Assembly: GCF_004322705.1 (NCBI RefSeq)
Contig: NZ_SIZZ01000002.1
Coordinates: forward strand, 62,001 to 126,000
Direction: 5' to 3'
Source of the DNA: Dyella terrae
GTDB taxonomy: Bacteria > Pseudomonadota > Gammaproteobacteria > Xanthomonadales > Rhodanobacteraceae
Length of the DNA stretch: 64,000 nt
How positions within the stretch are numbered: the first letter of the stretch is position 1; the number at the start of each line of letters is the position of its first letter. The notes under the pieces are model-generated. The model was not told the DNA's origin and searched no databases. It saw nothing but the letters and a program-made list of their open reading frames with translations. A program made the position numbers and the translations under genes. Shown here one piece after another: positions 4,092-16,079 of this stretch.

Positions 4092-5099
4092 ATGTCGCGC
4101 GTGACCATCAACGATGTCGCCCGTGCCTCGGACACCTCGAAAAAAACCGTGTCGCGCGTGCTCAACAACGAGCCGAACGTGCGCGATTCGGTACGCGAGC
4201 GCGTGCTCGCGGCCGTGGCGGAACTCAATTATCGCCCGTTGACCTCCGCGCGCAGCCTCGCGACCAATCGCTCCTTCATGATCGGCCTGCTCTACGACAA
4301 CCTCTCGCCGAGCTACATCATGGAAGTGCAGGCCGGCGTGCTGGAGGCCTGCGAAGCGCAGCAGTACGGCATGGTGGTGCAGCCGCTGGTATCGACCGCG
4401 CCGGATTTCGTCGAGCGCGTGGAAGGCATCGTGTCGCGCCACCAGCCGGACGGCCTGATCCTCACGCCGCCGATCACCGATCACCCCAGGCTCCTAAGCT
4501 ACCTGCGCAAGGCGGATATTCCTTTTGCATCCATTGCGCCCCATCAGTCCAACGACTGCATCGGCGTCATCCTGCGCGAACGCGAGGCGGCCGCGAAGAT
4601 GGTGGCGCACCTGGTTTCGCTGGGGCATCGGCGCATCGCGCACATCATTGGCGACCCGAAGCATGGCGCTGGCATCTGGCGCCTGGCCGGCTATCGCGAC
4701 GGACTGAAGAAGGCCGGCCTCAAGGAAGACCCCGCGTACATGGTGCAGGGCCAGTTTTCCTTCGAGTCGGGCGTGGCGGCGGCGCGACGATTGCTGGCCA
4801 TGAAAGATCGTCCCACGGCGATTTTCGCCGCCGACGATGACATGGCTGTCGGCGCGATCTGGGCCGCCGCCGAAGCCGGCGTGTCGGTGCCCGGCGAGGT
4901 TTCCATCTGCGGCTTCGATGACACCACCATCGCCACCCAGGTGTGGCCCTTGCTCACCACGGTGCACCAACCCGTGCGCGAGATGGGCAAGCGCGCCACC
5001 GAAGAATTGTTGCTGCGCGTGCAGGGCAAGGGCGAGCCGCGCATGGTGGAAGTCGATTACGAAATGCGCCTGCGCGCATCGACGGCACCCGCCCCCTGA
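4092..5099 (+). CDS. LacI family transcriptional regulator
   Basis: 335 residues from the ATG at 4092, 16 bp after the glycosidase stop. The N-terminal helix-turn-helix (residues 3-27, with TINDVARASDTSKKTVSRVL) and the hinge NYRPLTSARSLATNRS match the LacI/GalR family. The rest is a periplasmic-binding-protein-like sensor ending in the usual GFDDTTIA motif near the C-terminus. Its position makes it the likely local regulator of the permease-glycosidase unit, with a sugar or glucosamine derivative as inducer; that ligand is inference. An in-frame start further upstream inside the glycosidase would add an unrelated tail and was rejected. Confidence 0.88.
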   Translation: MSRVTINDVARASDTSKKTVSRVLNNEPNVRDSVRERVLAAVAELNYRPLTSARSLATNRSFMIGLLYDNLSPSYIMEVQAGVLEACEAQQYGMVVQPLVSTAPDFVERVEGIVSRHQPDGLILTPPITDHPRLLSYLRKADIPFASIAPHQSNDCIGVILREREAAAKMVAHLVSLGHRRIAHIIGDPKHGAGIWRLAGYRDGLKKAGLKEDPAYMVQGQFSFESGVAAARRLLAMKDRPTAIFAADDDMAVGAIWAAAEAGVSVPGEVSICGFDDTTIATQVWPLLTTVHQPVREMGKRATEELLLRVQGKGEPRMVEVDYEMRLRASTAPAP

Positions 5100-5128
5100 T
5101 TCACATCATCCGAGTGAGGAATGCTTCC

Positions 5129-5965
5129 ATGACCGCCCCCAGCCACCCCTCCCGGACATTCCATTTCATCTCCGGCTTGCCGCGTTCGGGCACCACGCTC
5201 CTCGCTGCCATCCTCAACCAGAACCCACGCTTCCGCGCCGGCATGACCAGCCCGCTCGCGGACATCATGGGTGTGGTGATGGCCGAGGCGAGCAGCAAGA
5301 ATGACTTCGCTTTCGATGTCTCCGACGAACAGCGCGTGGCGGTGCTGCGGGGTCTGGTAGAGAACTTCTATTCGGTCGGTTCCGACGCGCAGGTGATCTT
5401 CGACACCAGCCGCCTGTGGTGCAGCCGCATGCAGCTGCTCAACACGCTGTTCCCGGGCGTCAAGGTGATCGCGTGCGTGCGGCAGCTGGCCTGGGTGCTC
5501 GACAGCATGGAGCGGCTGGTGCAGAAGCAGCCGGTCAGCGTCAGCAAGGTGTTCCGCTTCGATACCAATACGACGGTGTATTCGCGCGTTGAAGCATTGA
5601 CGGATCCGCGCGGCATGGTGGGCTTTGCCTATCAGGCGACCAAGGAGGCGTTCTACGGACGCTTCGCGCAGGATCATCTGTTGATGCTCACCTACGAAAG
5701 TCTGGTGGCGAATCCCGAGGCCGCCGTGCGCGCGGTGTATCGCTTCCTCGGAGAGCCGTGGTTCGATCACGACTTTGATCACATCGAGTACAACGCAAAT
5801 GAGTTCGACGCGCGCGTCGGCATGCCGGGGCTGCATTCGGTGCGGCCGAAGGTGGAGTCGATTGAAAGGCAGCCGATCCTGCCGCGTGATGTTTTCGGCC
5901 GCTTTGCGAATGAGGCGTTTTGGGCGGATCCGAAGAACAATGTGAATCAGGTGCCGATCGTTTAG
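5129..5965 (+). CDS. Sulfotransferase family protein
   Basis: 278 residues from the ATG at 5129, 29 bp after the LacI stop. The N-terminus carries the P-loop-like 5'-phosphosulfate motif SGLPRSGTTLL (about residues 13-23) of PAPS-dependent sulfotransferases. A second region near residue 115 (KVIACVRQLAWVLDSMERL) resembles the 3'-phosphate binding segment, and FYGRFAQDHLLMLTYESLV resembles the later helix of the fold. No signal peptide, so it is cytoplasmic. The acceptor is unknown. The stop codon overlaps that of the convergent AraC gene (5962-5965). It may be unrelated in function to the upstream sugar unit. Confidence 0.8.
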   Translation: MTAPSHPSRTFHFISGLPRSGTTLLAAILNQNPRFRAGMTSPLADIMGVVMAEASSKNDFAFDVSDEQRVAVLRGLVENFYSVGSDAQVIFDTSRLWCSRMQLLNTLFPGVKVIACVRQLAWVLDSMERLVQKQPVSVSKVFRFDTNTTVYSRVEALTDPRGMVGFAYQATKEAFYGRFAQDHLLMLTYESLVANPEAAVRAVYRFLGEPWFDHDFDHIEYNANEFDARVGMPGLHSVRPKVESIERQPILPRDVFGRFANEAFWADPKNNVNQVPIV

Positions 5966-6873
5966 TGGCGCGACCGGCGATACGCCGACGGCGTCACGCC
6001 GACGCGCTTGCGAAACGCCTTGGTGAAGGCCGATTCGGACAAGTAACCGATGCGCTCGGCCACGGTCGCCAGGGCCAGGTCCGTGCTCGACAGCAGGTTG
6101 CAGGCCAGCTGCATGCGCATGGTGGTGAGCAGGTCGATGGGTGACATGCCGCCCTTCTCACTGAACTGACGCGCGAACGTAGCCCTGGACATGTTCGCGC
6201 GGGCGGCGAGTGTTTCGACGGTCCAGTTTTCATGCGGCGACCTGATCATGGCGAGGATCGCGGCGCTAAGGCGTGGGTGGCTCAGCAGGCCCAGCAGCGA
6301 TGACGGAATCGCCTCGTGCTGCGAGTAAGTGCGTAATGCCATCACGAACAGCGCTTGGCTGAGCGCAGTGACGACGGCCAGTGCGCCTGGGCGCATGAGC
6401 GCCACTTCATGCCGGAGTATGGCGACGATGCCGTTGAGCGCGTCGATGGCCCCCTCGTTCGTCAGGCTGACGTGCAGGACGTCCGGCAAGGCGTGCATCA
6501 ACAAGTCGGTCGTGCCGCTTGCGTAAGTGAAGCGGCCACAGAGCAGGTCCAGTTCCACGGCGCCGTCGGTATTGCGGCGTTCGGGCAGCGCGCCGAGGCT
6601 ATCCAGCATCATCGGCATGGCGTCGGCCTCGCCGAGGCCATAAAGCGTGTGCGCCGCGCCACGCGGCAGCAGCACGAAGTCACCCGCCTTGAGCGTCATG
6701 TCGGGCTTGCCCCTGACTTGCAACCGTGCGGTGCCTGCCAGCACCAGGTGGAAGGGCGCTTCGCCCGGCCCGGCACTGTCATGGGGGATGTCGAACCGGC
6801 CGGCCAGCTGGCAGCGCAGGTCAAGGCTACCCTGGACGGCGGCGAGGTCGATGACACTGCTGAGGGCGTCCAT
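5962..6873 (-). CDS. AraC family transcriptional regulator (cupin-type sensor)
   Basis: 303 residues. The N-terminal half is a cupin-like sensor (LKAGDFVLLPRGAAHTLYG). The C-terminal 100 residues contain the two AraC helix-turn-helix motifs, including VETLAARANMSRATFARQF and VAERIGYLSESAFTKAFRK, ending in the usual GVTPSAYRR. It is transcribed away from the carboxymuconolactone-decarboxylase-like gene, sharing a 118-bp control region. That arrangement is common for this AraC subgroup, which often controls a neighbouring oxidoreductase or peroxidase-type gene. The effector is unknown. Confidence 0.88.
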   Translation of the reverse strand: MDALSSVIDLAAVQGSLDLRCQLAGRFDIPHDSAGPGEAPFHLVLAGTARLQVRGKPDMTLKAGDFVLLPRGAAHTLYGLGEADAMPMMLDSLGALPERRNTDGAVELDLLCGRFTYASGTTDLLMHALPDVLHVSLTNEGAIDALNGIVAILRHEVALMRPGALAVVTALSQALFVMALRTYSQHEAIPSSLLGLLSHPRLSAAILAMIRSPHENWTVETLAARANMSRATFARQFSEKGGMSPIDLLTTMRMQLACNLLSSTDLALATVAERIGYLSESAFTKAFRKRVGVTPSAYRRSRH

Positions 6874-6991
6874 GAGACGAATGCGCCAGAAAATGAGTGT
6901 GGCGAGTATTCATCAGCTCACGACTTCGGACAACACTGCTGCTGCCAGGGGAGCCGACACGCCGGCTCCCGGCTTATCGAGGACAGACACC

Positions 6992-7333
6992 ATGTTGGAT
7001 TGGCTGCAGTACCGCAAAGAACTGATGGGCCGCATCGGCGAGATCGGCGCCCTCAGCCCCGACACACTCAAGGGCTACCAGACCCTCTCAAAAGCCGGCC
7101 AGCAGGCCAATGTGCTTGGCGCGAAGACACGCGAACTGATCGCACTCGCCGTCGCCGTCACCACGCGCTGCGATGGCTGCATCACCGTGCATGTGGCGGA
7201 GGCGTTGCGGCATGGGGCCAGCAAGGAAGAGATCGCCGAAGCGTTGGGCGTGGCAGTCGCGCTGAATGCCGGTGCGGCGATGGTGTACTCCGCGCGTGTC
7301 ATGGATGCGGTGGCGGCGCATGACGCTCATTGA
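6992..7333 (+). CDS. Carboxymuconolactone decarboxylase / AhpD-like protein
   Basis: 113 residues from the ATG at 6992, preceded by a GAGGA ribosome site. It has the compact all-helical AhpD/CMD fold signature with a CxxC pair in TRCDGCITVHVAEALRHG, the redox-active dithiol with nearby histidine seen in AhpD-type alkylhydroperoxidases. True gamma-carboxymuconolactone decarboxylases usually lack the CxxC pair, so a peroxidase or oxidative-stress role is more likely than aromatic catabolism. It is divergent from the AraC regulator, which probably controls it. The longer in-frame upstream extension would overlap the AraC gene and has no family similarity. Confidence 0.85.
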   Translation: MLDWLQYRKELMGRIGEIGALSPDTLKGYQTLSKAGQQANVLGAKTRELIALAVAVTTRCDGCITVHVAEALRHGASKEEIAEALGVAVALNAGAAMVYSARVMDAVAAHDAH

Positions 7334-7364: not shown

Positions 7365-9449
7365 TTATTCTTGAGGACAGCGGCGCGCTGCTGCAGGGCC
7401 CGCGTCGTAGATGGCGAACGTGCCGGATTGAAAGACGGCGGAGTGGTGATCCGGGTCCCAGGTGGGTTGGTGTGGCTGATCCACAACGAACCATCGGATG
7501 CTGGCTCCCGCGAGGCGCGCGCACGCACCCGGCCAATCGTCGGCATTGACCACGCCATCGATGACGGCGCTTCGCTCGCGTGCCAGCGTAGCCGAGGCCG
7601 CATCCTGCTTTTCGAGCAACTCTACGCGGCCAAGATAGGTGGGCACGTCGGCAAAGCTCACCAGTTCGGTCTGGCGGCTCTGCATGTATCCGCGCATGGC
7701 CTGACCACTGGTGGCCAGGATGTCGCCCGACTGCGAATGCTCACGCAAATAGGTGCCGGCCTGTGCAATGCCGGGCGCAATCGGACGGCCGTAGAAATCG
7801 GTCGCCCAGGGCATGTGCTTCAGCGAAGGCAGGCCAAGGCGAGCGTCACGCCCGACCACCATCACGACGAGAACCAGGAGGACGGACACGCCCAGGCTGG
7901 CGAGTTCGGCGCTGGGCGCACGAAAGGTCGGCAGGCATTCGCCTGCACGGGCAAAGCACCAAGCTACGACGATGGCGTACATCAGGACGAAGTGGCGATG
8001 CCTGAGCTCGGACGAGTCCGTGTTCAAGGTGGGAGCGAGCAGGATCAGTCCTGTGTACGTTGCGCAGAGCAACCACGGCAGCCAGTCAGCGGTTTCCCAA
8101 CGGCGACGGCGGACCTGGATGATCGTCATCACCGGAAGGATGAGCACCCAGATGCCGAGGGCCGCCACCAACATCAGTAGCGGACCGATAAGCAGGGCGA
8201 GGAACTCGTGGCCGGATGCCACCCATGCATGGAACGTTGCCGCGAGATGGGGAATCCCAAATCCCAGCGTTGACTCCATATAAGGAAGCGGCAGGAACAG
8301 GCTCTTTAGCGAAGGCTGCAACGCGAGCAAGGCCGCCGCGGCGCACAGCGCCACGATGAAGGCACCACCGACTGCCAGGGCCTGGGTGCGCCCTGATGTG
8401 CGCCACTTGCCCAGCAACCATGTACCGGCAAGTGCTGGCGCAAGCAGCACGAAGAAGTGCAGGCGAATTGCGACCAGGGATGCCAGCAGGGCAAAGCCAA
8501 GCGCCGTGGCGGCGCGTCGCTGGCTGCGCAAACCCAGCGTGACGCACGCTGCCGCCATCGCAGCGACACCGAGTGCATAACCGGTACCCGGTGCGGTGTA
8601 GAGCAGCCAGCGCACACCGAAGAAACCGTTCTCCATGCCGTAAGCCGCCGCATCCGGCAGGCACGCGACGATAACCACTGTTGCCAGCGCAATCGCCTTG
8701 TTCGTCAGCTGCGCCACCCAGGCATACAGACCGAGCGCACCGATCAGCAAGCCCAGTGGCAGCAGGGCGCATAGCGCGAGTGCAAGTCCGGGCAGGTCGG
8801 TCGGTGACAGCCATGCCGCCGCAAGAGCGTAGGTGCCATAGTGGTAGAGCGGTCGCGGTGTATCGGCGAGCAGGATGTTGCCGCGACTGATGGCGAGTGG
8901 ATCACCGAACGAGGCGATGGCAGTGCCATGAACGTAGTAGTCCGACCATGCCGGCAGGGAGCCACCCTTTGCCACCGTGGTTTGAAAGGCCGCCACGTCA
9001 CGACAGAAACAAGCGATCAGGATGGAAAGCACTGCGATCGCAAGGACATCGAACCAGGAACCTTGTTCCGAATCACTGTTCGATCGTATCGGCTTCCATA
9101 GCCAGGCGAGCAGAGTCAGGCCGGCCAGGGGGGCGAACGCCCAGGCTGCCGTCATGCCGAACGTCGAGCTCAGCGCCCAGGTCGCCAGCATGGTAACTGC
9201 GGCACCGACGACCCAGGCGGCTGGCAAAGGTGACGTCAATCGCAGGCTGGCGCGGGCAAGGATCCATTCGCCGCAGAGCGTCATCGTCGCGATGATGAGA
9301 AGCGATGCAAGCAGCGTTCGTGCGCCGTGGCCCGTGCCCGCAAGCAGGCACAGCCACGTCATGAAGCACGACATGATGAACACGCACGCGGCGCGCTGCA
9401 GCCATGGCCGGGCGACAAAGGTCGGGCGACGTGCGGAGAGTCCTGTCAT
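7365..9449 (-). CDS. Large polytopic membrane protein, GT-C glycosyltransferase-like
   Basis: 694 residues with about twelve to thirteen hydrophobic segments and a C-terminal soluble domain of roughly 170 residues. After the early helices there is a periplasmic-loop candidate, LPAWSDYYVHG, with acidic and aromatic residues where GT-C enzymes place their catalytic acid. GT-C enzymes take sugars from polyprenyl-phosphate donors on the periplasmic side. No exact family name is clear from sequence. It lies beside a GtrA flippase and a polyprenyl-phosphate glycosyltransferase, which would make it the transfer enzyme (the GtrC role) of that module. That role is inference; an uncharacterised membrane protein is the safe reading. 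Confidence 0.6.
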   Translation of the reverse strand: MTGLSARRPTFVARPWLQRAACVFIMSCFMTWLCLLAGTGHGARTLLASLLIIATMTLCGEWILARASLRLTSPLPAAWVVGAAVTMLATWALSSTFGMTAAWAFAPLAGLTLLAWLWKPIRSNSDSEQGSWFDVLAIAVLSILIACFCRDVAAFQTTVAKGGSLPAWSDYYVHGTAIASFGDPLAISRGNILLADTPRPLYHYGTYALAAAWLSPTDLPGLALALCALLPLGLLIGALGLYAWVAQLTNKAIALATVVIVACLPDAAAYGMENGFFGVRWLLYTAPGTGYALGVAAMAAACVTLGLRSQRRAATALGFALLASLVAIRLHFFVLLAPALAGTWLLGKWRTSGRTQALAVGGAFIVALCAAAALLALQPSLKSLFLPLPYMESTLGFGIPHLAATFHAWVASGHEFLALLIGPLLMLVAALGIWVLILPVMTIIQVRRRRWETADWLPWLLCATYTGLILLAPTLNTDSSELRHRHFVLMYAIVVAWCFARAGECLPTFRAPSAELASLGVSVLLVLVVMVVGRDARLGLPSLKHMPWATDFYGRPIAPGIAQAGTYLREHSQSGDILATSGQAMRGYMQSRQTELVSFADVPTYLGRVELLEKQDAASATLARERSAVIDGVVNADDWPGACARLAGASIRWFVVDQPHQPTWDPDHHSAVFQSGTFAIYDAGPAAARRCPQE

Positions 9450-9631
9450 GCAAACAAATCCTTGTCATGGATGTGACGCGATCGGTGGCGCTTCGACATC
9501 GGCCGGACGTCGGCCGTACAAAGGGCAGTGTACACTCCAGAACCACCACGCCCGGGCTCCGCCCGGCTTGCGGAAGGGATAACGAGACGCTGCGGCAGCA
9601 CGCGTGACTGCCGTCGGCTCATTGCGACAAA

Positions 9632-10414
9632 GTGGAGCGTCAATTCGTGGCCGTAGAGCAATTCAAACCGATCGCCGTCCAGTCACCGACGCGGCAGCCG
9701 TGGCTGTTTCGCGTGCGCTGCCTGCTCGACCTGCAATTGGCCACCATTGTCAGGTACCTGCGTCCGGAGCTCGCCAAACTCCATGGCCGGGTGATCGACG
9801 TTGGCGCGGGCGAATCGCCATGGCGCGACTGGCTACCCTCGTCGGTGACTTACCAGGGCATTGATGTCGGTAACGCCACGGAGTTCGGCATGAGTGCCGG
9901 CCATCCGGATGTCACGTACTACGACGGACGCATCATGCCTTTCGCCGATGCAAGCTTCGACAGTGCCCTGTGCATCGAGGTGTTGGAACACACGGAAGAC
10001 CCGGCGCTATGCCTGTCGGAGATCGCCCGCGTGCTCAAGCCCGGTGCGTCGCTGCTCCTGACCGTGCCGTGGTCGGCGCGTCGCCACCATATTCCGCACG
10101 ACTACCATCGGTTCACGCGCGAGCGCCTCGAGATCATGTTCGGCGAACATGGTTTCGAGAACGTCGAGATTCGCGAACGCGGCACCGATATTGGCGCCAT
10201 CGCCAGCAAGCTGGTGGTGCTTACAGCCCGGCTGGCGCAGCCGAAAGTCGACGTCTCGCTACTGTGGCGCATCCCGCTGCTGGTCCCCGTCGTGCCGGTG
10301 GCGCTGGGTTTCGTAGCGGCATCGCATGTATCCGAAGCCTTGGGCGCCGGTGCGAAGGAAGATCCGCTGGGCTACTTCGTCAAGGCGACGCGCGCCACAT
10401 CGAGCCGCGGCTAA
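9632..10414 (+). CDS. Class I SAM-dependent methyltransferase
   Basis: 260 residues from a GTG at 9632. The glycine motif VIDVGAGES (about residue 50) binds S-adenosylmethionine, followed by MPFADASFDSALCIEVLEH and ARVLKPGASLLLTVPW, the usual motifs of the Methyltransf_11 type. The last 70 residues include a hydrophobic stretch that may touch the membrane. It is the only plus-strand gene inside the minus-strand sugar cluster, and its stop overlaps that of gtrA by a few bases (10411-10414). Its acceptor is unknown; surface-sugar O-methylation is a reasonable guess. GTG was chosen because no ATG precedes the conserved region. Confidence 0.78.
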   Translation: MERQFVAVEQFKPIAVQSPTRQPWLFRVRCLLDLQLATIVRYLRPELAKLHGRVIDVGAGESPWRDWLPSSVTYQGIDVGNATEFGMSAGHPDVTYYDGRIMPFADASFDSALCIEVLEHTEDPALCLSEIARVLKPGASLLLTVPWSARRHHIPHDYHRFTRERLEIMFGEHGFENVEIRERGTDIGAIASKLVVLTARLAQPKVDVSLLWRIPLLVPVVPVALGFVAASHVSEALGAGAKEDPLGYFVKATRATSSRG

Positions 10415-10815
10415 TCCGCGTGCTCGACCTGCGCCTGAGGATGTGCGGGCGCAAACACAAGCTTCGATAGCAGCACGTAAGAAACCACCGCCATGAACGG
10501 CGTCAGGATGGCCTGGCTGACGATGGCGTTGTACGTGAGCTTGTTGAGCCACGCAATGAGCACAAGATTCATCGCGTACGTCAGCAGATACGCCGCGACG
10601 AAGCGGGGCAGGCGCCGGCGGGACACATCGAGAAACACGAAGTGGCCCGTAGTCAGGAAATTGAACACGATGCCCGCGAGGTTGCCGCCGATCAGGGCCA
10701 CCCAGGTCGGGCTGTGGGCAACCACGAACAACGCATACACGGTAAAACCGAACAGCGTGTTGAGGCCACCCACCAGCACGAACCGGATGAAGCGCAGTTT
10801 GAGCAGTTTACGCAT
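10411..10815 (-). CDS. gtrA: GtrA family membrane protein (polyprenyl-phosphate sugar flippase type)
   Basis: 134 residues with four predicted membrane helices. The N-terminus (KLRFIRFVLVGGLNTLFGFT) is the classic GtrA opening. GtrA proteins are thought to move undecaprenyl-phosphate-linked sugars to the periplasmic side for glycosylation of O-antigen or teichoic acid. The gene begins 8 bp inside the upstream methyltransferase, so it is translated from the same message. The same operon encodes a GtrB-type domain, which is the expected partner. The symbol is assigned by family membership. Confidence 0.85.
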   Translation of the reverse strand: MRKLLKLRFIRFVLVGGLNTLFGFTVYALFVVAHSPTWVALIGGNLAGIVFNFLTTGHFVFLDVSRRRLPRFVAAYLLTYAMNLVLIAWLNKLTYNAIVSQAILTPFMAVVSYVLLSKLVFAPAHPQAQVEHAD

Positions 10816-11731
10816 GGGCCTTCGGCTTGAAACCGGCCGCGGCCGTATTGCCCACGTTGATTGATAGCTTTACGCCATTCAGTCGCAGCCCTTCGAGCAC
10901 GCGGCCCATCGGCCGCTTGAGGCCTGCCGGTAGCGGCATCAGGCGGTGCCAATACGACAGGGCATACGTGTTGGTGAACGCATTCGCTTCGATGTCCACG
11001 TAACCGGCTTGCGCGAACAGGGCGCGAATGCTGTCGCGGGAAAACAGCTGCATGTGTTCGATGTCGACGATGGGTGATCGCTTGCCCAGCATGCGATTGA
11101 CCGGGTGTCGATAATCGTGCGTAACCGAGAGAAAGGCGCCGCCGGGTCGCAGCAAGCGAATCGCCGATTCGACAACCTCCAGCGGATCGCGCACGTGCTC
11201 AAGCGTCATGAAGCAGCAGATCATGTCGAACGATTCAGGCGCATAGTCGCCTTCGACGAAGATGCCTTCGCGAATCCAGGGGCGACGATGCTCCGGCGCG
11301 GCAGCAATGGCCGCCGTGGATGGCTCGATGCCTTCGACATGGCGGAATCCGATCGCCGACAATTTCTCCAGGAACACACCCGTGCCCGTGCCGATCTCCA
11401 GCGCCGAGTCGTGGGCGAGGCGACCGAGAACCTTGGCGAAAGCGTCTGCGTAGCTCGAGGCCGCGTCATTGGCTTCTTCGCTGCTGTCGTAGTCCGCGCT
11501 GTGATAGGCCTTGGCCAGTTCACCCTGGGACGGCGGACTGTCGACGTAGACCAGGTCGCAGGTGGGGCAACGAACCATCTGGAAGCAAAGTCGCTCCGGT
11601 TCCTTGCGTGAGGCAAAGCTGTAGCTGTTCAGCGCCGAGGTATCGATGCGCTCCTCCAGATAGACCTCTGCGTGGTCCGGGAAGCGCCGGCAAATCGGGC
11701 AAGGCCTGTGGTTTCGGTCAGCCGGTTGCAT
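10808..11731 (-). CDS. SAM-dependent methyltransferase with N-terminal zinc-binding cysteines
   Basis: 307 residues. The N-terminus carries two cysteine pairs (CPIC near residue 14 and CPTC near residue 55), a small zinc ribbon found in sugar methyltransferases of polysaccharide clusters. The core has LEIGTGTGVFLEKL (S-adenosylmethionine binding) and MICCFMTLEHVRDPLEVV. It lacks the long C-terminal domain of NovU/TylCIII-type sugar C-methyltransferases, so C- versus O-methylation cannot be decided. It lies between the epimerase-glycosyltransferase fusion (33-bp gap) and gtrA (8-bp overlap), so it probably decorates the sugar this operon makes. Confidence 0.8.
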   Translation of the reverse strand: MQPADRNHRPCPICRRFPDHAEVYLEERIDTSALNSYSFASRKEPERLCFQMVRCPTCDLVYVDSPPSQGELAKAYHSADYDSSEEANDAASSYADAFAKVLGRLAHDSALEIGTGTGVFLEKLSAIGFRHVEGIEPSTAAIAAAPEHRRPWIREGIFVEGDYAPESFDMICCFMTLEHVRDPLEVVESAIRLLRPGGAFLSVTHDYRHPVNRMLGKRSPIVDIEHMQLFSRDSIRALFAQAGYVDIEANAFTNTYALSYWHRLMPLPAGLKRPMGRVLEGLRLNGVKLSINVGNTAAAGFKPKAHA

Positions 11732-11763
11732 GGTGTCCTGTCTGTCGTGGATGGGGGCGGAAG

Positions 11764-13734
11764 TTACGGGTGCGCTTCGCCGCCGGTCTGCTCGGTGATG
11801 ACACCGTGGCGGATGAGGGCGGCGCGAATGAGGCGCGGACGCCCCTTCACTTCGATCATGATCTTGCCGATGTATTCGCCCACCAGTCCGATGCCAAACA
11901 GGTTGAGCGAGCCAAAGCCCAGTACGGCGATCAGCAAAGTGGTGATGCCGCGCGGCGCAATGTCAGGCCAGATCACGCGAAGCGTGGCGACCACGACGGC
12001 GGCGATCAGCGAAAGCACCAGCAGGCTGAGGCCCAGCGTGGTGAGCATGGTCAGCGGCACGTTGCTGAAGGAGAAGATGCCCTTCTTGGCCCAGTCGATG
12101 TTCTTGGCGAACGTGTTGGTCGTGCGACCGAACATGCGCTCGGGGCGCAGGTAGTCCACGCCCGTCTGGCGGAAGCCGACGTAGGCGCGCAGGCCGCGCA
12201 TGAACAGGTCGCGCTCCGTGCAGGCGAGCAGCCACTGGACCACCTTTCGGTCCATCAGCGAGAAGTCGCCGGCGTCCAGCGGAATCTTGACGTAGCTGAA
12301 AGCGGCGAAGACGCGATAGAACGCCTTGTACAGGAGGCCCCAGTGCCAGGGCATTTCGCGCTTGATGCGACGGCCGTAGACAACGTCGAAACCCTTTTCC
12401 CACTCGGCGTAGAAGGCTTCGATGAGTTCGGGCGGGTCCTGCAGGTCGCCATCGAGCAGCACGACGGCGTCCTTGGTCGCCAGCTCCATGCCACTGCGGA
12501 AGGCCATCTGCGAGCCGAAGTTGCGCGAATGGGTGATGCCGATGACGTGTGGATCCGTTTCCGACAGGAGACGGATCTGCTCCGCGCTGTCGTCGGGACT
12601 GCCATCGTTGACGAAGATGATCTCGTAATCGATGCCGATCTTGTTGAACGTTTCCGTCAGGCGCTTGTGCATGAACGGAATGGCCTGCGCATCCTTGTAG
12701 CAGGCGATGATCGCCGAGACGGAGCGACGGCGGGCCTGGGTCGTCTTCTTGGTGCGGCTGGCCAGCTCTTCGTCGGTGACGCCAACGAATGCCTTGGACA
12801 TGTCCAGCAGGCCGTCGGCCAGTGGAATGTTCGCCTTCCAGCCCATCAGGCGCTCGGCCTTGGCGGGATTGGAGTACCAATCCTGCAGATCCCAGGCACG
12901 GCCTTCCATGGTGCCGAACTTGGCCGGCTCGTCGATCTTGAAGAGCGAACGGGTCAGCTCGGCAAGCTCACCAATGGTGACACGCTGGCCGGCACCGATG
13001 TTGAAGTCCTCGCCGTACAGCGAGGGGTTCATCTTGGCGGCGGCCATGATGAAGGCCGCGCAGACGTCATTGACATGGACGAAGTCGCGCGAAGTGTGTT
13101 CGTTGACCAGCGGCGGCAGCGTGCCGGCGAGCGCTGAGCGCAGCAGATTGGGAATGAGTCGTGAGCTGTCTTCGAGGGCGCCATAGACCGAGTACAGGCG
13201 CAGGTTCACGCAGGGGAAGGCATGGCACTTGCCCATGTACTGCAGATACTCAGCCGTCGCCACCTTCGATACCGCGTAGTGACTGTTTGGCTCGCATCGA
13301 TCCGACTCTTCAGGCGCGGCACAGTTCATGCCGTACTCGGACGATGAGCCAGCATGCACGAACGCGGCAATCGACTGCTTGGCCAACAGCGAGACCAACA
13401 TCGTGATGGCGTTGAAGTTGGTCTGGTAGATCAGCTGCTGGTCCTGCTCGAACGAGTAGGCGCCATAGGCCACGCAATCGAACACGGTCTTTGGCGACGT
13501 GGCGCCGATGAGGTTCTTCACCGCGGCCGGATCGTTGAGGTTGGCCGCAAGGATGTTTTCTTCGGGCACGCCGGCCAGGCGCCAGTTGCGTTCGCGCTGC
13601 ACCACGGCATAGACGTCCGGGCGCACCGCGCGAATCATGTGGAACAGCGTGGCGCCGATAAAGCCGGTGGCACCGGTGACCAGGATGGGACCGGTCAGGG
13701 AGCGGATATGGAACGCGATATCGGGGTTGCTCAC
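11764..13734 (-). CDS. Fusion: NAD-dependent epimerase/dehydratase + polyprenyl-phosphate glycosyltransferase (GtrB-like)
   Basis: 656 residues from a GTG whose GTGA overlaps the upstream transketolase stop. Residues 1-320 are an extended short-chain dehydrogenase: Rossmann GATGFIG (21-27) and catalytic Tyr153/Lys157 (YAVSK), acting on nucleotide sugars. After a basic linker (about 320-340), residues 340-560 form a family-2 glycosyltransferase with VNDGSPDDS (375-383) and DGDLQDPPE (428-436). Two membrane helices follow at about 565-585 and 598-620. The second half matches the GtrB/dolichol-phosphate-mannose-synthase class, which loads a sugar on undecaprenyl phosphate. Both halves keep their key residues, so one chain may make and load the sugar. 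The frame is continuous, with no sign of a sequencing join. Confidence 0.88.
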   Translation of the reverse strand: MSNPDIAFHIRSLTGPILVTGATGFIGATLFHMIRAVRPDVYAVVQRERNWRLAGVPEENILAANLNDPAAVKNLIGATSPKTVFDCVAYGAYSFEQDQQLIYQTNFNAITMLVSLLAKQSIAAFVHAGSSSEYGMNCAAPEESDRCEPNSHYAVSKVATAEYLQYMGKCHAFPCVNLRLYSVYGALEDSSRLIPNLLRSALAGTLPPLVNEHTSRDFVHVNDVCAAFIMAAAKMNPSLYGEDFNIGAGQRVTIGELAELTRSLFKIDEPAKFGTMEGRAWDLQDWYSNPAKAERLMGWKANIPLADGLLDMSKAFVGVTDEELASRTKKTTQARRRSVSAIIACYKDAQAIPFMHKRLTETFNKIGIDYEIIFVNDGSPDDSAEQIRLLSETDPHVIGITHSRNFGSQMAFRSGMELATKDAVVLLDGDLQDPPELIEAFYAEWEKGFDVVYGRRIKREMPWHWGLLYKAFYRVFAAFSYVKIPLDAGDFSLMDRKVVQWLLACTERDLFMRGLRAYVGFRQTGVDYLRPERMFGRTTNTFAKNIDWAKKGIFSFSNVPLTMLTTLGLSLLVLSLIAAVVVATLRVIWPDIAPRGITTLLIAVLGFGSLNLFGIGLVGEYIGKIMIEVKGRPRLIRAALIRHGVITEQTGGEAHP

Positions 13735-14639
13735 GAAGGGTCTGCCAGGGCAAGGAGGAGGCTTTGGGGATCGAGGCCAGAAGCCTTGCGAAGGTAGTTC
13801 TGCGAGCCGTAACGCGGGTAATGGTGCGCGCGGGCGTAAAGATGGCTGATGCGCGCTTGCTTACCCTGTTTCATGAGGTACAGCGCGAATTCGGCGCCAA
13901 AGCTGCCTCGCTCGACGTGCTCCTCGGCCACGCACAGGTGGCCTGTGCGGTCGATCTGCTCGAGCAGTTCGGCGGGCGGGGCATGGCGATGAATGGGCAG
14001 CTCCGCGACGGCCCAGAGGCTGGGTCGGGTGGCCTCAGGCATCTCGCGCAGGACCTGGATGTAGGTCCCGGCGAGGGGGCCCACGGCGACGACGGGCGCG
14101 CCATGGCCCTTCAGCAGCTGACGCCACGGTGCATAGGCCGGCACCTCGAAATCGGCGGGCTGTTCGCCACGGCCGAGTCGGATGTAGCTGGCCGTGGAGC
14201 TGTCACCAGCCGCATCGATCACCGCAGGAATGTCCTGGTCGAACACCGGCACATAGGCCGTAAGGTTCGGCAGGGCCAGGAGGATGCCGTAGTCCTCGAT
14301 GGCGTGGTGGGTCGGACCCATCACCCCATAACCGTAGCCGCCACCATTGCCGACGAGCTTGACGGGCAGGTGGTGGAAGGCAATGTCATTGCGGATCTGC
14401 TCGAAGGGTCGTGCATAGCAGAACGGCGCAATGCTGTAGACCCAGGCGTCCAGCCCCTGGCGTGCCAGCGCGGCGGCGACCGAGATCATGTTCTGTTCGG
14501 CGACGCCCGCATTGATGAAGCGCTCGCCCATGGTTTGCTGCAGCGGTTCCAGCGCCATGAATCCAAGATCACCCGTCAGGAACACCATGTTCGGGTTCTT
14601 GGAGCGCGCTACCAGCGAATCACACAATGGCTTTCTCAT
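13731..14639 (-). CDS. Transketolase-like protein, C-terminal subunit
   Basis: 302 residues from the ATG at 14639, which overlaps the stop of the N-terminal subunit as ATGA. It contains the pyrimidine-binding and C-terminal regions of transketolase (VAEQNMISVAAALARQGL with the catalytic glutamate, and the later GPLAGTYIQVL region). Together with the upstream gene it makes one thiamine-diphosphate enzyme split into two chains. An upstream in-frame extension would read into the partner gene and is not needed. Beside nucleotide-sugar and glycosyltransferase genes it probably serves surface-sugar synthesis, not the pentose phosphate pathway. Confidence 0.85.
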   Translation of the reverse strand: MRKPLCDSLVARSKNPNMVFLTGDLGFMALEPLQQTMGERFINAGVAEQNMISVAAALARQGLDAWVYSIAPFCYARPFEQIRNDIAFHHLPVKLVGNGGGYGYGVMGPTHHAIEDYGILLALPNLTAYVPVFDQDIPAVIDAAGDSSTASYIRLGRGEQPADFEVPAYAPWRQLLKGHGAPVVAVGPLAGTYIQVLREMPEATRPSLWAVAELPIHRHAPPAELLEQIDRTGHLCVAEEHVERGSFGAEFALYLMKQGKQARISHLYARAHHYPRYGSQNYLRKASGLDPQSLLLALADPS

Positions 14640-15421
14640 GAACGCGAAAGCTCCTCGATCGCAAGCTGGTAGTGCTTTTCGTCGAGCGGAAGATAATGCC
14701 ACTCCATGCGGTTCTCCATGAACGACACGCCCTTGCCCTTGGTGGTTTCCAGCACCATGAGGCGTGGCCGGTCGGCGGGGCGGTCCAGTGATGCGCGAAT
14801 CTGCTCGAGGTCGTGGCCTTCGACGATCTGTACGTCGATATCGAAGCCTTGCAGCTTGTCCCAGAGCGGCGCCATGGACGCGACGTCGTCGGTGCCCCCG
14901 AAGCCCTGCAGGCGATTATGGTCGACCAGGATGGTGAGGTTCGTCAGCTTCTGGTGACAGGCGAAGATCAGGGCCTCCCAGGTGGAGCCCTCCTGCCATT
15001 CACCGTCCGAGGTCAGGCAGTACACGTGGCCCGACTCGCCCTTCAGGCGCTGCGCCAGTGCCGTGCCGGCTGCCAGCGACAGGCCATGCCCCAGGCTGCC
15101 GGTTGCAAACAGGACGTCTTTCAGTCCGCTGGCCGGGGGGTGGCCTGCGAGCAGGGTGTCGTCGCGGTGGAAGGTGGTGAGATCTTCGTCGCGGAGCTTG
15201 CCTGCGCTCCAGAGCGCCACATAGAGCGCGCCGGCGGAGTGACCCTTGGAAAGCACCAGGTGATCTTCCGACCCCATGCGCTCATTGAGCAGCACACTCA
15301 GTGCATCGATGCATGAGAGATTGCCGCCGATGTGGCCGACGCCGCTCTCGTAGTGCATGCGTACGAGCCGCTTGCGAATGTTGACCAGGTGACTGGCATC
15401 TAGCTGCGCGGGTGTTGTCAT
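14636..15421 (-). CDS. Transketolase-like protein, N-terminal subunit
   Basis: 261 residues from the ATG at 15421. The thiamine-diphosphate-binding half of transketolase is clear: HYESGVGHIGGNLSCIDAL, LSKGHSAGALY, GSLGHGLSLAAGTAL, and the GDGE-like metal-diphosphate motif as SDGEWQEGSTWEA followed by NRLQ. An in-frame extension of 36 residues upstream has no family similarity and was left out. It is the first gene of a minus-strand operon that continues with the C-terminal subunit, the epimerase-glycosyltransferase fusion, a methyltransferase and gtrA. The two-carbon donor and acceptor are unknown. Confidence 0.86.
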   Translation of the reverse strand: MTTPAQLDASHLVNIRKRLVRMHYESGVGHIGGNLSCIDALSVLLNERMGSEDHLVLSKGHSAGALYVALWSAGKLRDEDLTTFHRDDTLLAGHPPASGLKDVLFATGSLGHGLSLAAGTALAQRLKGESGHVYCLTSDGEWQEGSTWEALIFACHQKLTNLTILVDHNRLQGFGGTDDVASMAPLWDKLQGFDIDVQIVEGHDLEQIRASLDRPADRPRLMVLETTKGKGVSFMENRMEWHYLPLDEKHYQLAIEELSRS

Positions 15422-16003
15422 ATTGCTTGACGCTCTCGCTGTTCTCGCCGAAGTGGAGGTTTTGCCCCCACGAATCATCCCTGCTTCTGCCGGCATCCCT
15501 GTGCCGTGGAGAGGATCGCCAAAGGCCATTCCTGCAGAGTACTCAGATAAACCTTACTCGATTTGACACTGAAAAATGAGGTCCGAGACCTCAGGGATCG
15601 CTGCGTGCGGCTTCCTTTCGCCTCCGCAGATGGCTTCCGGCATGCCGTCATCATGAACTGCGCCATGCGATGCACCGCGTCATGACTCTGTGCATGGCCC
15701 TGGCGATCTGACCAGACTCAGTCCTTTCCCCGTGGCTCAGACGTTTCACTTGAGAATGTGTGCAACGCGTGATGAAGAGCAGCATGCCAGGTGACATCGG
15801 TCGCCAGTGGATTTTGCCGATGGAATGGCGTGGCGTGAGGTGAGGGTCTCCGGCGTCCTGGAAGCATCAGTGCGCCCCTCGTGCAGTGCGGTCCAAGATG
15901 ACATTCGCCGTGCCCACGCACGGGCGTGTTCTTCCCCGGTGCGACCCTTCTCGAATGCGGTCGGATGTGCGTCCTCCGTAATGCCACAACCGTGTCGCGG
16001 CGC
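15422..16003. other. Intergenic stretch before the transketolase operon; no gene found
   Basis: This 582-bp stretch between the transketolase operon and tRNA-Ile2 has no convincing coding frame on either strand; the open frames show no recognisable domain. It presumably holds the operon promoter (reading minus). It contains a 17-bp perfect-arm palindrome at 15577-15593, described separately. Confidence 0.5.
15577..15593. promoter_or_regulatory. Palindrome TGAGGTC-CGA-GACCTCA, possible operator
   Basis: Two perfect 7-bp arms are separated by three bases, about 155 bp upstream of the transketolase operon start. There is no T-run, so it is not a terminator, and the short spacer and symmetry suit a dimeric repressor. 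No regulator is assigned; the function is inference. Confidence 0.3.

Positions 16004-16079
<76 letters not shown>

Follow-up and report, generated by a model that had tools for sequence, protein, structure and literature searches.

A conserved split-transketolase and Gtr-type gene module on an accessory island of Dyella terrae may supply a two-carbon-branched surface sugar

We describe a gene cluster at positions 7365-15421 of a 64,000-nucleotide stretch of Dyella terrae DNA (contig NZ_SIZZ01000002.1, 62001-126000; genome of 4.22 Mb in 9 contigs). The whole stretch is called the window, and its own numbering is used throughout. The cluster joins the two halves of a split transketolase to a fusion protein, Fus, in which a short-chain dehydrogenase/reductase (SDR) is linked to a GtrB-like family 2 glycosyltransferase (GT2), together with two methyltransferases, a GtrA-family protein and a large membrane protein. 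The features are as follows (ThDP, thiamine diphosphate; SAM, S-adenosylmethionine; GT-C, glycosyltransferase of fold class C):

16004-16079, minus strand: tRNA-Met (ARAGORN), its 3' end marking the island boundary; homology with five of five congeners ends at 16002-16004
14636-15421, minus strand: tktN, ThDP-binding N-terminal half of a split transketolase (Pfam Transketolase_N, 4.6e-24; PDB 6yak)
13731-14639, minus strand: tktC, C-terminal half of the split transketolase (Transket_pyr, 1.3e-19, and Transketolase_C, 7.6e-07; PDB 6yaj)
11764-13734, minus strand: fus, fusion of an SDR and a GtrB-like GT2 (Pfam Epimerase, 1.8e-41; Glycos_transf_2, 2.1e-24)
10808-11731, minus strand: MT1, SAM methyltransferase (Pfam Methyltransf_23, 2.6e-27)
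10411-10815, minus strand: gtrA, small GtrA-family membrane protein, putative flippase (PF04138, 2.3e-14)
9632-10414, plus strand: MT2, second SAM methyltransferase (Pfam Methyltransf_11, 5e-13)
7365-9449, minus strand: large polytopic membrane protein of 694 residues, candidate GT-C transferase (12 predicted helices)

Along the minus strand from tRNA-Met the order is tktN, tktC, fus, MT1 and gtrA; the plus-strand gene MT2 separates gtrA from the gene of the membrane protein. The open frame of tktN extends to 15529; position 15421 is an in-frame methionine (Met37 of the longest frame), and the alignments of relatives to TktN begin at residues 36-52 of the long frame. Likewise, the listed frame of tktC begins at 14702, and the start that fits its relatives is Met22, an ATG at 14639. 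The stop of tktN and the start of tktC overlap by 4 bases (ATGA), as do the stop of tktC and the start of fus (GTGA). A preliminary description of this DNA had named a split transketolase, an epimerase-GtrB fusion, a methyltransferase and a GtrA protein; all of these are open frames whose Pfam families agree with the names. Its gene list overlooked MT2, which is itself syntenic.

A scan of genome contigs for relatives of fus recovered 30 loci, with 49-84% identity in the best segment. They span gamma-, beta- and alphaproteobacteria, the named relatives including Dyella and Rhodanobacter at 71-84% identity, and extend to one Eremiobacterota and one Sphingobacteriales (Bacteroidota) metagenome-assembled genome, whose contigs may be misbinned. 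The same tktN-tktC pair lies in the fus cluster at 28 of the 30 loci, and at 36 of 38 once a plasmid locus and seven loci from genome searches are added (one of the 38 is a repeat, L044 being the same contig as L009). Both exceptions, L016 and L034, are cut by contig ends, so that the pair is present at 36 of 36 testable loci. More specifically, tktC immediately adjoins fus in 34 of these 36, with one methyltransferase gene between the two in L037 and two in L038. GtrA was detected in 20, MT1 in 20 and MT2 in 18 of the 30 genome-contig loci; after MT2 another protein family is found in L023, L024, L031 and L035, and in the two that were scanned it is a methyltransferase. Counting the window, 27 of 31 loci have one or more proteins of 400-900 residues and 7 or more predicted helices no farther than 6.5 kb away, a count made without a chance control.

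The evolutionary distances of the TktN, TktC, SDR and GtrB parts co-vary (r 0.85-0.92, or 0.73-0.79 without L033, L035 and L039). MT1 distances co-vary less with these core parts (r 0.42-0.73), and MT1 and MT2 distances do not co-vary with each other (r 0.06, 12 loci). Given the gene overlaps, the constant transketolase pair across several classes and the co-varying distances, chance neighbours are not expected. Conserved synteny in other genomes, the check proposed in the preliminary description, was found, and supports a module, as read from sequence, that comprises the split transketolase, the SDR-GtrB fusion, methyltransferases, GtrA and a variable polytopic protein.

At E<=1e-100, matches occur in 5 of 398 genomes of a phylum sample and in 4 of 117 genomes of a family sample, the window's own genome included in both, and in none of the five other members of the genus in the family sample. 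DNA homology between the window and the five congeners covers rpoD and stops at the tRNA-Met 3' end. The DNA past this point was compared over some 14 kb in four of the congeners and over 6.4 kb in the fifth, and at 1e-6 none of the module's proteins has a match there; the only matches are the tRNA itself and weak AraC-type ones in a single congener. The module is an accessory island adjoining a tRNA gene. At 1e-20, the congeners' own stretches past tRNA-Met have no match over 300 bases with one another, and the tRNA-Met 3' end beside rpoD is likely a hot spot for islands. Two vehicles were considered for the module and rejected. For a phage origin, none of the 122 phage records matching at E<=1e-20 covers 80% of Fus; among the 15 of these matches listed, it is the GtrB half that is matched, and an Enterococcus record aligns to 70% of Fus at 27%. 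For spread by plasmids, fus occurs in one plasmid record of 72,556 at E<=1e-60 (Methylobacterium aquaticum, 61%).

The Fus protein has Pfam Epimerase at residues 17-247 and Glycos_transf_2 at 340-499, giving an SDR half of the NAD-dependent epimerase/dehydratase fold (about 14-320) and a GT2 half (about 337-640) with two predicted membrane helices. The SDR residues Y153 and K157 are kept in 37 of 37 loci and the SDR glycines are invariant wherever covered; DGD at 428-430 and D433 of the transferase are kept in 38 of 38. The second half thus carries the catalytic aspartates and C-terminal membrane helices of a GtrB-like transferase. A structural model of Fus (predicted local distance difference test, pLDDT, 77) has Synechocystis GtrB (sll0501; 9nyc/5ekp) as its best Foldseek match at 34-36% identity, followed by the epimerase-type SDRs Mth375 (6pnl/6pmh) and TM0509 (4zrm), with EvdS6 at rank 28; the GtrB half also matches ArnC. 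ArnC and the Synechocystis enzyme resemble the GT half in fold at about 27-36% identity, and their PDB chains, of 307-363 residues, have no SDR domain, unlike Fus. The modelled structure supports the view that the GtrB half is closest to the polyisoprenyl-phosphate glycosyltransferase GtrB. EvdS6 is described as an SDR that releases a keto-sugar (PMC10338323). The GtrA protein has 3 predicted membrane helices and lies near fus, as in Gtr modules. MT1 has an N-terminal CxxC...CxxC stretch, its best PDB match being 2gs9 (4.9e-11), with a weak match to TcaB9 (2.6e-04). The membrane protein matches no Pfam or NCBIfam family at 0.001; its 12 helices come from a simple hydropathy count, and relatives aligned from four module loci are 46, 25, 21 and 23% identical.

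The transketolase halves retain H130, D175, N205 and H278 of TktN in 36 of 36 loci, H66 and H97 in all 29 loci that cover them, and D45, E69 and H132 of TktC in 36 of 36. We take these positions to be the ThDP/Mg-binding and catalytic residues; a split-form transketolase is thereby recognised, with these positions invariant wherever covered. Substrate-site positions were read by aligning the module with human transketolase and the split enzyme of Carboxydothermus, with E. coli numbers transferred by us; His461 counts among the substrate-site residues. The Ser385 site is Met in 31 of 36 module loci, Gln in 4 and Gly in 1, the His461 site is Gly in 35 of 35, and the Asp469 site is Met in 36 of 36. 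The Carboxydothermus hydrogenoformans enzyme (6yaj/6yak) is, like that of the module, a two-chain ThDP enzyme, and is the best PDB match of both halves (1.1e-47 for TktN and, by family profile, 3.6e-41 for TktC). Unlike the module, it keeps Ser, His and Asp at these sites, as do human transketolase and another, ordinary-looking transketolase of the D. terrae genome. The module therefore does not show the Ser385/His461/Asp469 set of a housekeeping sugar-phosphate transketolase. In E. coli transketolase, Ser385 contacts the substrate phosphate, and the combination S385Y/D469T/R520Q shifted the acceptor away from phosphorylated aldehydes (PMC5073344).

The neighbours of related transketolases suggest what the substrate may be. 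The window TktC matches 115 plasmid records at 1e-15, of which six were opened besides the M. aquaticum record. A Methylovirgula plasmid has the order rfbF-rfbG-SDR-rfbH-tktN-tktC, followed on the other strand by GT2 and GtrA genes. A Paenibacillus cellulosilyticus plasmid has rfbF, rfbG, a methyltransferase with C-methyltransferase domains, an SDR+TktN fusion, tktC and an O-methyltransferase; the fusion (L064, 7172-9079) is one chain of 635 residues annotated merely as an SDR oxidoreductase. On an Azospirillum plasmid, tktN and tktC are followed by an epimerase, an aldo/keto reductase, an O-methyltransferase and a glycosyltransferase. The products of rfbF and rfbG make cytidine diphosphate (CDP)-4-keto-6-deoxyglucose, and rfbH leads to the 3-deoxy form. 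By analogy, the simplest reading of operons that combine rfbF/G(/H) with a split transketolase is that they follow the logic of the yersiniose pathway with a hydroxyacetyl donor, hydroxyacetyl being what transketolase carries. YerE, the branching enzyme of that pathway, is absent from the annotated neighbours of the Methylovirgula and Paenibacillus operons, a judgement made with no family search. The window SDR matches the partner SDRs of rfb-linked operons at 8e-20 and 8e-18 and RmlB at 9e-11, with the motif GS[SQ][SA]EYG in common. Two fusions, SDR-TktN in Paenibacillus and SDR-GtrB in the module, would together link transketolase, SDR and GtrB as steps of a single chain.

The remaining plasmids opened show other neighbours. 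Two from Streptomyces carry split transketolases whose neighbours make natural-product uses possible: in L066 (8204-11989) phosphonate (phosphoenolpyruvate mutase) genes with nonribosomal peptide and polyketide synthase genes, and in L067 (6636-9879) a DegT gene amid LysW-type and adenylation genes. On a Vibrio nigripulchritudo plasmid (L068, 8027-12646), genes for a RuBisCO-like protein and then an FGGY kinase come after the split transketolase, and sugar ABC transporter genes are close by; this is probably a sugar-catabolic cluster.

To place the module among such enzymes, the Methylovirgula TktC was used as a query; 85 of the 398 phylum genomes match at 1e-30, module copies included, and 80 of the 115 places listed were fetched. 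We extracted 117 TktC frames of 230-420 amino acids and dropped 5 same-locus second matches that were off-family by their residues. The remaining 112 come from 27 of 39 module loci (the window and L009-L046) and from 85 of 86 other stretches (L139 was lost); the missing module frames were absent or outside the length limits, and the 36-locus residue counts used tblastn. Labelled by neighbours, 27 belong to the module, 9 lie with rfbF and rfbG (at least 40% identity), 17 with an FGGY kinase or RuBisCO-like protein, here called catabolic, and 59 have no assigned context. A partner SDR accompanies 6 of the 9 rfb-linked copies, and rfbH 3. The His461 site is Gly in 27/27 module, 9/9 rfb-linked and 0/17 catabolic TktC, and the Ser385 site is Ser in 0/27, 7/9 and 10/17, respectively. 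Of the three sites, only the change at His461 separates glycan-type from catabolic TktC in these sequences.

A tree of 113 rows (111 TktC, L044 being equal to L009, and two rows from the D. terrae genome) was obtained by a quick search, with the Shimodaira-Hasegawa-like approximate likelihood ratio test (SH-aLRT) alone as support. Module TktC form one clade (SH-aLRT 99), within a 50-row group (SH-aLRT 91) that holds the module, all 9 rfb-linked copies and 15 without assigned context; all 17 catabolic copies fall outside. The two own-genome rows, which by motif we take to be transketolase and DXS, do not between them form one side of a branch: DXS sits on a long branch inside a large glycan-side group, and L174 is likewise on a long branch in that group, beside the module. 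A separate clade of 27 split transketolases (L112-L158) has the motifs NTIA[STP]F and [AG][NS]GGG; 9 of the 27 have a 4,6-dehydratase-like match of 26-31% nearby, the rest having no readable context, and these are possibly further branched-sugar enzymes.

We favour, at a rough probability of 0.55, the reading that the locus is a laterally moving Gtr-type module in which the transketolase attaches a hydroxyacetyl branch to a keto-sugar; the product would then be loaded onto undecaprenyl phosphate, flipped and transferred. The gene set, found in unrelated environmental bacteria, appears to decorate the cell surface with a two-carbon-branched sugar, a chemistry suggested by gene neighbours. A nucleotide keto-sugar, from the host or from the SDR domain, would gain a two-carbon hydroxyacetyl unit from the split transketolase. 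The SDR domain would then reduce or epimerise the branched sugar, as a ketoreductase does in the yersiniose pathway, and the fused GtrB domain, by homology, would transfer it to undecaprenyl phosphate. GtrA may carry the lipid-linked sugar to the periplasmic face, where the variable polytopic protein, probably a GT-C transferase, would hand it to a surface glycan, be it LPS or another. The sugar would also be modified by one or two methyltransferases.

Parts of this scheme resemble known systems. Phage and bacterial Gtr O-antigen modules likewise have a GtrA-family protein, a GtrB-like transferase and a variable large membrane protein, and phage gtrABC genes match the GtrB half of Fus at 36% among the matches listed. 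The present module differs in the fusion of GtrB to an SDR, the constant split transketolase and the one or two methyltransferases. The miharamycin and amipurimycin clusters of Streptomyces, to our knowledge without GtrB and GtrA, are alike in their split transketolase genes and proposed reaction and differ in their antibiotic context, a likeness drawn from description and not from sequence. In these, a split-gene transketolase has been proposed to move a hydroxyacetyl group to a keto-sugar; the type comprises 13 putative sequences, all from Streptomyces and none characterised in vitro (PMC12247030). The yersiniose pathway, too, uses a ThDP enzyme and a reductase to give a keto nucleotide sugar a two-carbon branch, and the module's transketolase has relatives in rfbF/G(/H) operons. 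Its YerE is a decarboxylase-type single flavoprotein that uses pyruvate and acts on a 4-keto-3,6-dideoxy sugar (PMC12247030, PMC4753412), adding an acetyl group that is then reduced by a reductase described as uncharacterised in 2016 (PMC4753412). In contrast to YerE and its acetohydroxyacid-synthase-like architecture, the module has a transketolase-type two-gene enzyme, for which Pfam gives only domains of transketolase, DXP synthase and E1 dehydrogenase type, and which would give a hydroxyacetyl branch.

A number of observations weigh against the favoured reading. The link to keto-sugar genes is present for relatives (9 of 112 TktC, by rfbF and rfbG) and not for the module itself, in which Pfam and NCBIfam find no nucleotidyltransferase and no 4,6-dehydratase, unlike in the rfb-linked operons. 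The nucleotide sugar must consequently come from the host, and the keto-sugar must come from the host or be made by the SDR itself. The host genome has one deoxythymidine diphosphate (dTDP)-glucose 4,6-dehydratase (RmlB) above its cut-off, at 499.9 bits, and no CDP-glucose 4,6-dehydratase above its own. The preliminary description had credited the cluster with its own sugar-making enzymes, which is true only in part. It had also suggested a sugar perhaps with a two-carbon branch or a methyl group, and the relatives of the transketolase beside CDP-keto-sugar genes favour the branch; the branch chemistry and the sugar itself stay at the level of proposal. The relatives were collected with an rfb-operon TktC as query, so that the sample favours rfb cases; L101-L103 are near-identical, which reduces the nine rfb-linked copies to about seven independent cases, and in L107 and L108 both rfbH and a matched SDR are missing. 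The window TktC is just 33% identical to those of Methylovirgula and Paenibacillus, and the 50-row group is not starred in the tree. The SDR comparison used a handful of references, and the SDR of Methylovirgula is itself close to RmlB (7e-20).

The residues and the module's composition add to these points. Gly at the His461 site is shared by 49 of the 59 TktC without assigned context. Since 7 of 9 rfb-linked copies keep Ser385, its loss in the module is no sign of keto-sugar use; residue changes as proof of function were dropped on these two grounds. The Asp469 site is other than Asp in all module and rfb-linked copies, and equally in 17 of 17 catabolic ones. Both phosphate-site arginines are kept (R23 in 36 of 36 loci and R178 in 34 of 36), and sugar phosphates therefore stay possible substrates. 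GtrA was undetected in 10 of 30 loci, some of which are short contigs. Two loci, L135 and L150, have the transketolase and an MT1-like gene with a separate GtrB (43-44%) that has no fused SDR domain, which suggests that the SDR may be a later step and not the source of the ketone; the only SDR match in L150, at 24-26%, lies elsewhere in the stretch, and L163 resembles these two loci but is cut by a contig end. Lastly, the membrane protein had been called GT-C-like: its polytopic nature, with 12 predicted helices, stands, but its model (pLDDT 47) is too poor for a fold search, and GT-C is a candidate assignment.

The retained arginines bear on an alternative that we regard as unlikely, in which the sugar is unusual but unbranched: the transketolase would make a ketose or aldose phosphate, such as a pentulose, which the host activates and SDR-GtrB epimerises and loads. 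Sugar phosphates are the natural acceptors of transketolase, and related split transketolases do occur with FGGY kinases or a RuBisCO-like protein (the 17 catabolic copies of 112, some of whose FGGY matches are just 19-27% identical). Those catabolic copies, however, lie outside the module's tree group and never have the Gly that the module and rfb-linked TktC share at the His461 site. Nor do Pfam and NCBIfam find a kinase or nucleotidyltransferase in the module, and the genome has its other, ordinary-looking transketolase, with Ser, His and Asp.

Considerably less probable is a scheme in which loading comes first: transketolase and SDR would work at the membrane on a sugar already linked to undecaprenyl phosphate, with the SDR-GtrB fusion holding this lipid-linked substrate. 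The model for such editing is DprE1/DprE2, which act on decaprenyl-phospho-ribose. Fusion of the SDR to a membrane enzyme, the constant pairing of transketolase and fusion, the two loci that keep a transketolase beside a GtrB without SDR, and the lack of nucleotide-sugar genes in the module are consistent with it; yet relatives with readable context pair such a transketolase and SDR with soluble CDP-sugar genes, and we know of no transketolase that acts on a lipid-linked sugar. A last alternative, that a surface glycan island picked up the transketolase for precursor supply and its genes share no pathway, fits an accessory island with all five congeners unmatched beyond tRNA-Met and the uncorrelated MT1 and MT2 distances, but is disfavoured as very improbable by the pair in every testable locus, the 4-base overlaps and the co-varying core distances.

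No description of the module was found in the open-access literature searched. A link to bradyrhizose, considered because a Bradyrhizobium (L024) carries the module, was set aside: the main text of the bradyrhizose paper does not mention transketolase, calls the synthesis genes unknown and indicates an operon of eleven genes, one of them for a dTDP-glucose 4,6-dehydratase (PMC4743980). Also set aside were Actinoplanes, in which a split transketolase lies in wps-2, which also has DegT genes, and not in the GtrA cluster gsf (PMC13390465), and a Herbaspirillum paper in which transketolase occurs solely in the title of a reference.

Two-carbon-branched sugars are known in O-antigens and antibiotics, and no enzyme of the split-transketolase route has been characterised in vitro (PMC12247030). 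Being compact and well conserved, and having overlapping genes, numerous relatives and a partner SDR, the cassette offers a directly testable source of a branching enzyme, and the partner SDRs are candidates for a ketoreduction of the kind uncharacterised for yersiniose in 2016 (PMC4753412). If the favoured reading is true, Gtr-type surface decoration extends to hydroxyl-bearing tertiary-alcohol sugars. A wider claim, which we hold tentatively and at slightly less than even odds, is that split transketolases are an overlooked and widespread bacterial route to surface sugars with a two-carbon (hydroxyacetyl or dihydroxyethyl) branch. On this claim the module would couple the branch to the loading of undecaprenyl phosphate and to transfer in the periplasm, the branch possibly being added while the sugar is lipid-linked, and one mobile cassette would install a class of surface sugar not yet seen.

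Two further features lie on the far side of the membrane protein gene. The frame at 4943-5965, between a LacI-type regulator and an AraC gene, presumably encodes a sulfotransferase-like protein, judged by motif. Directly beside the module are the AraC-type regulator and a divergent AhpD-like gene (5962-7333), the best NCBIfam match of the regulator being RclR, below its cut-off.

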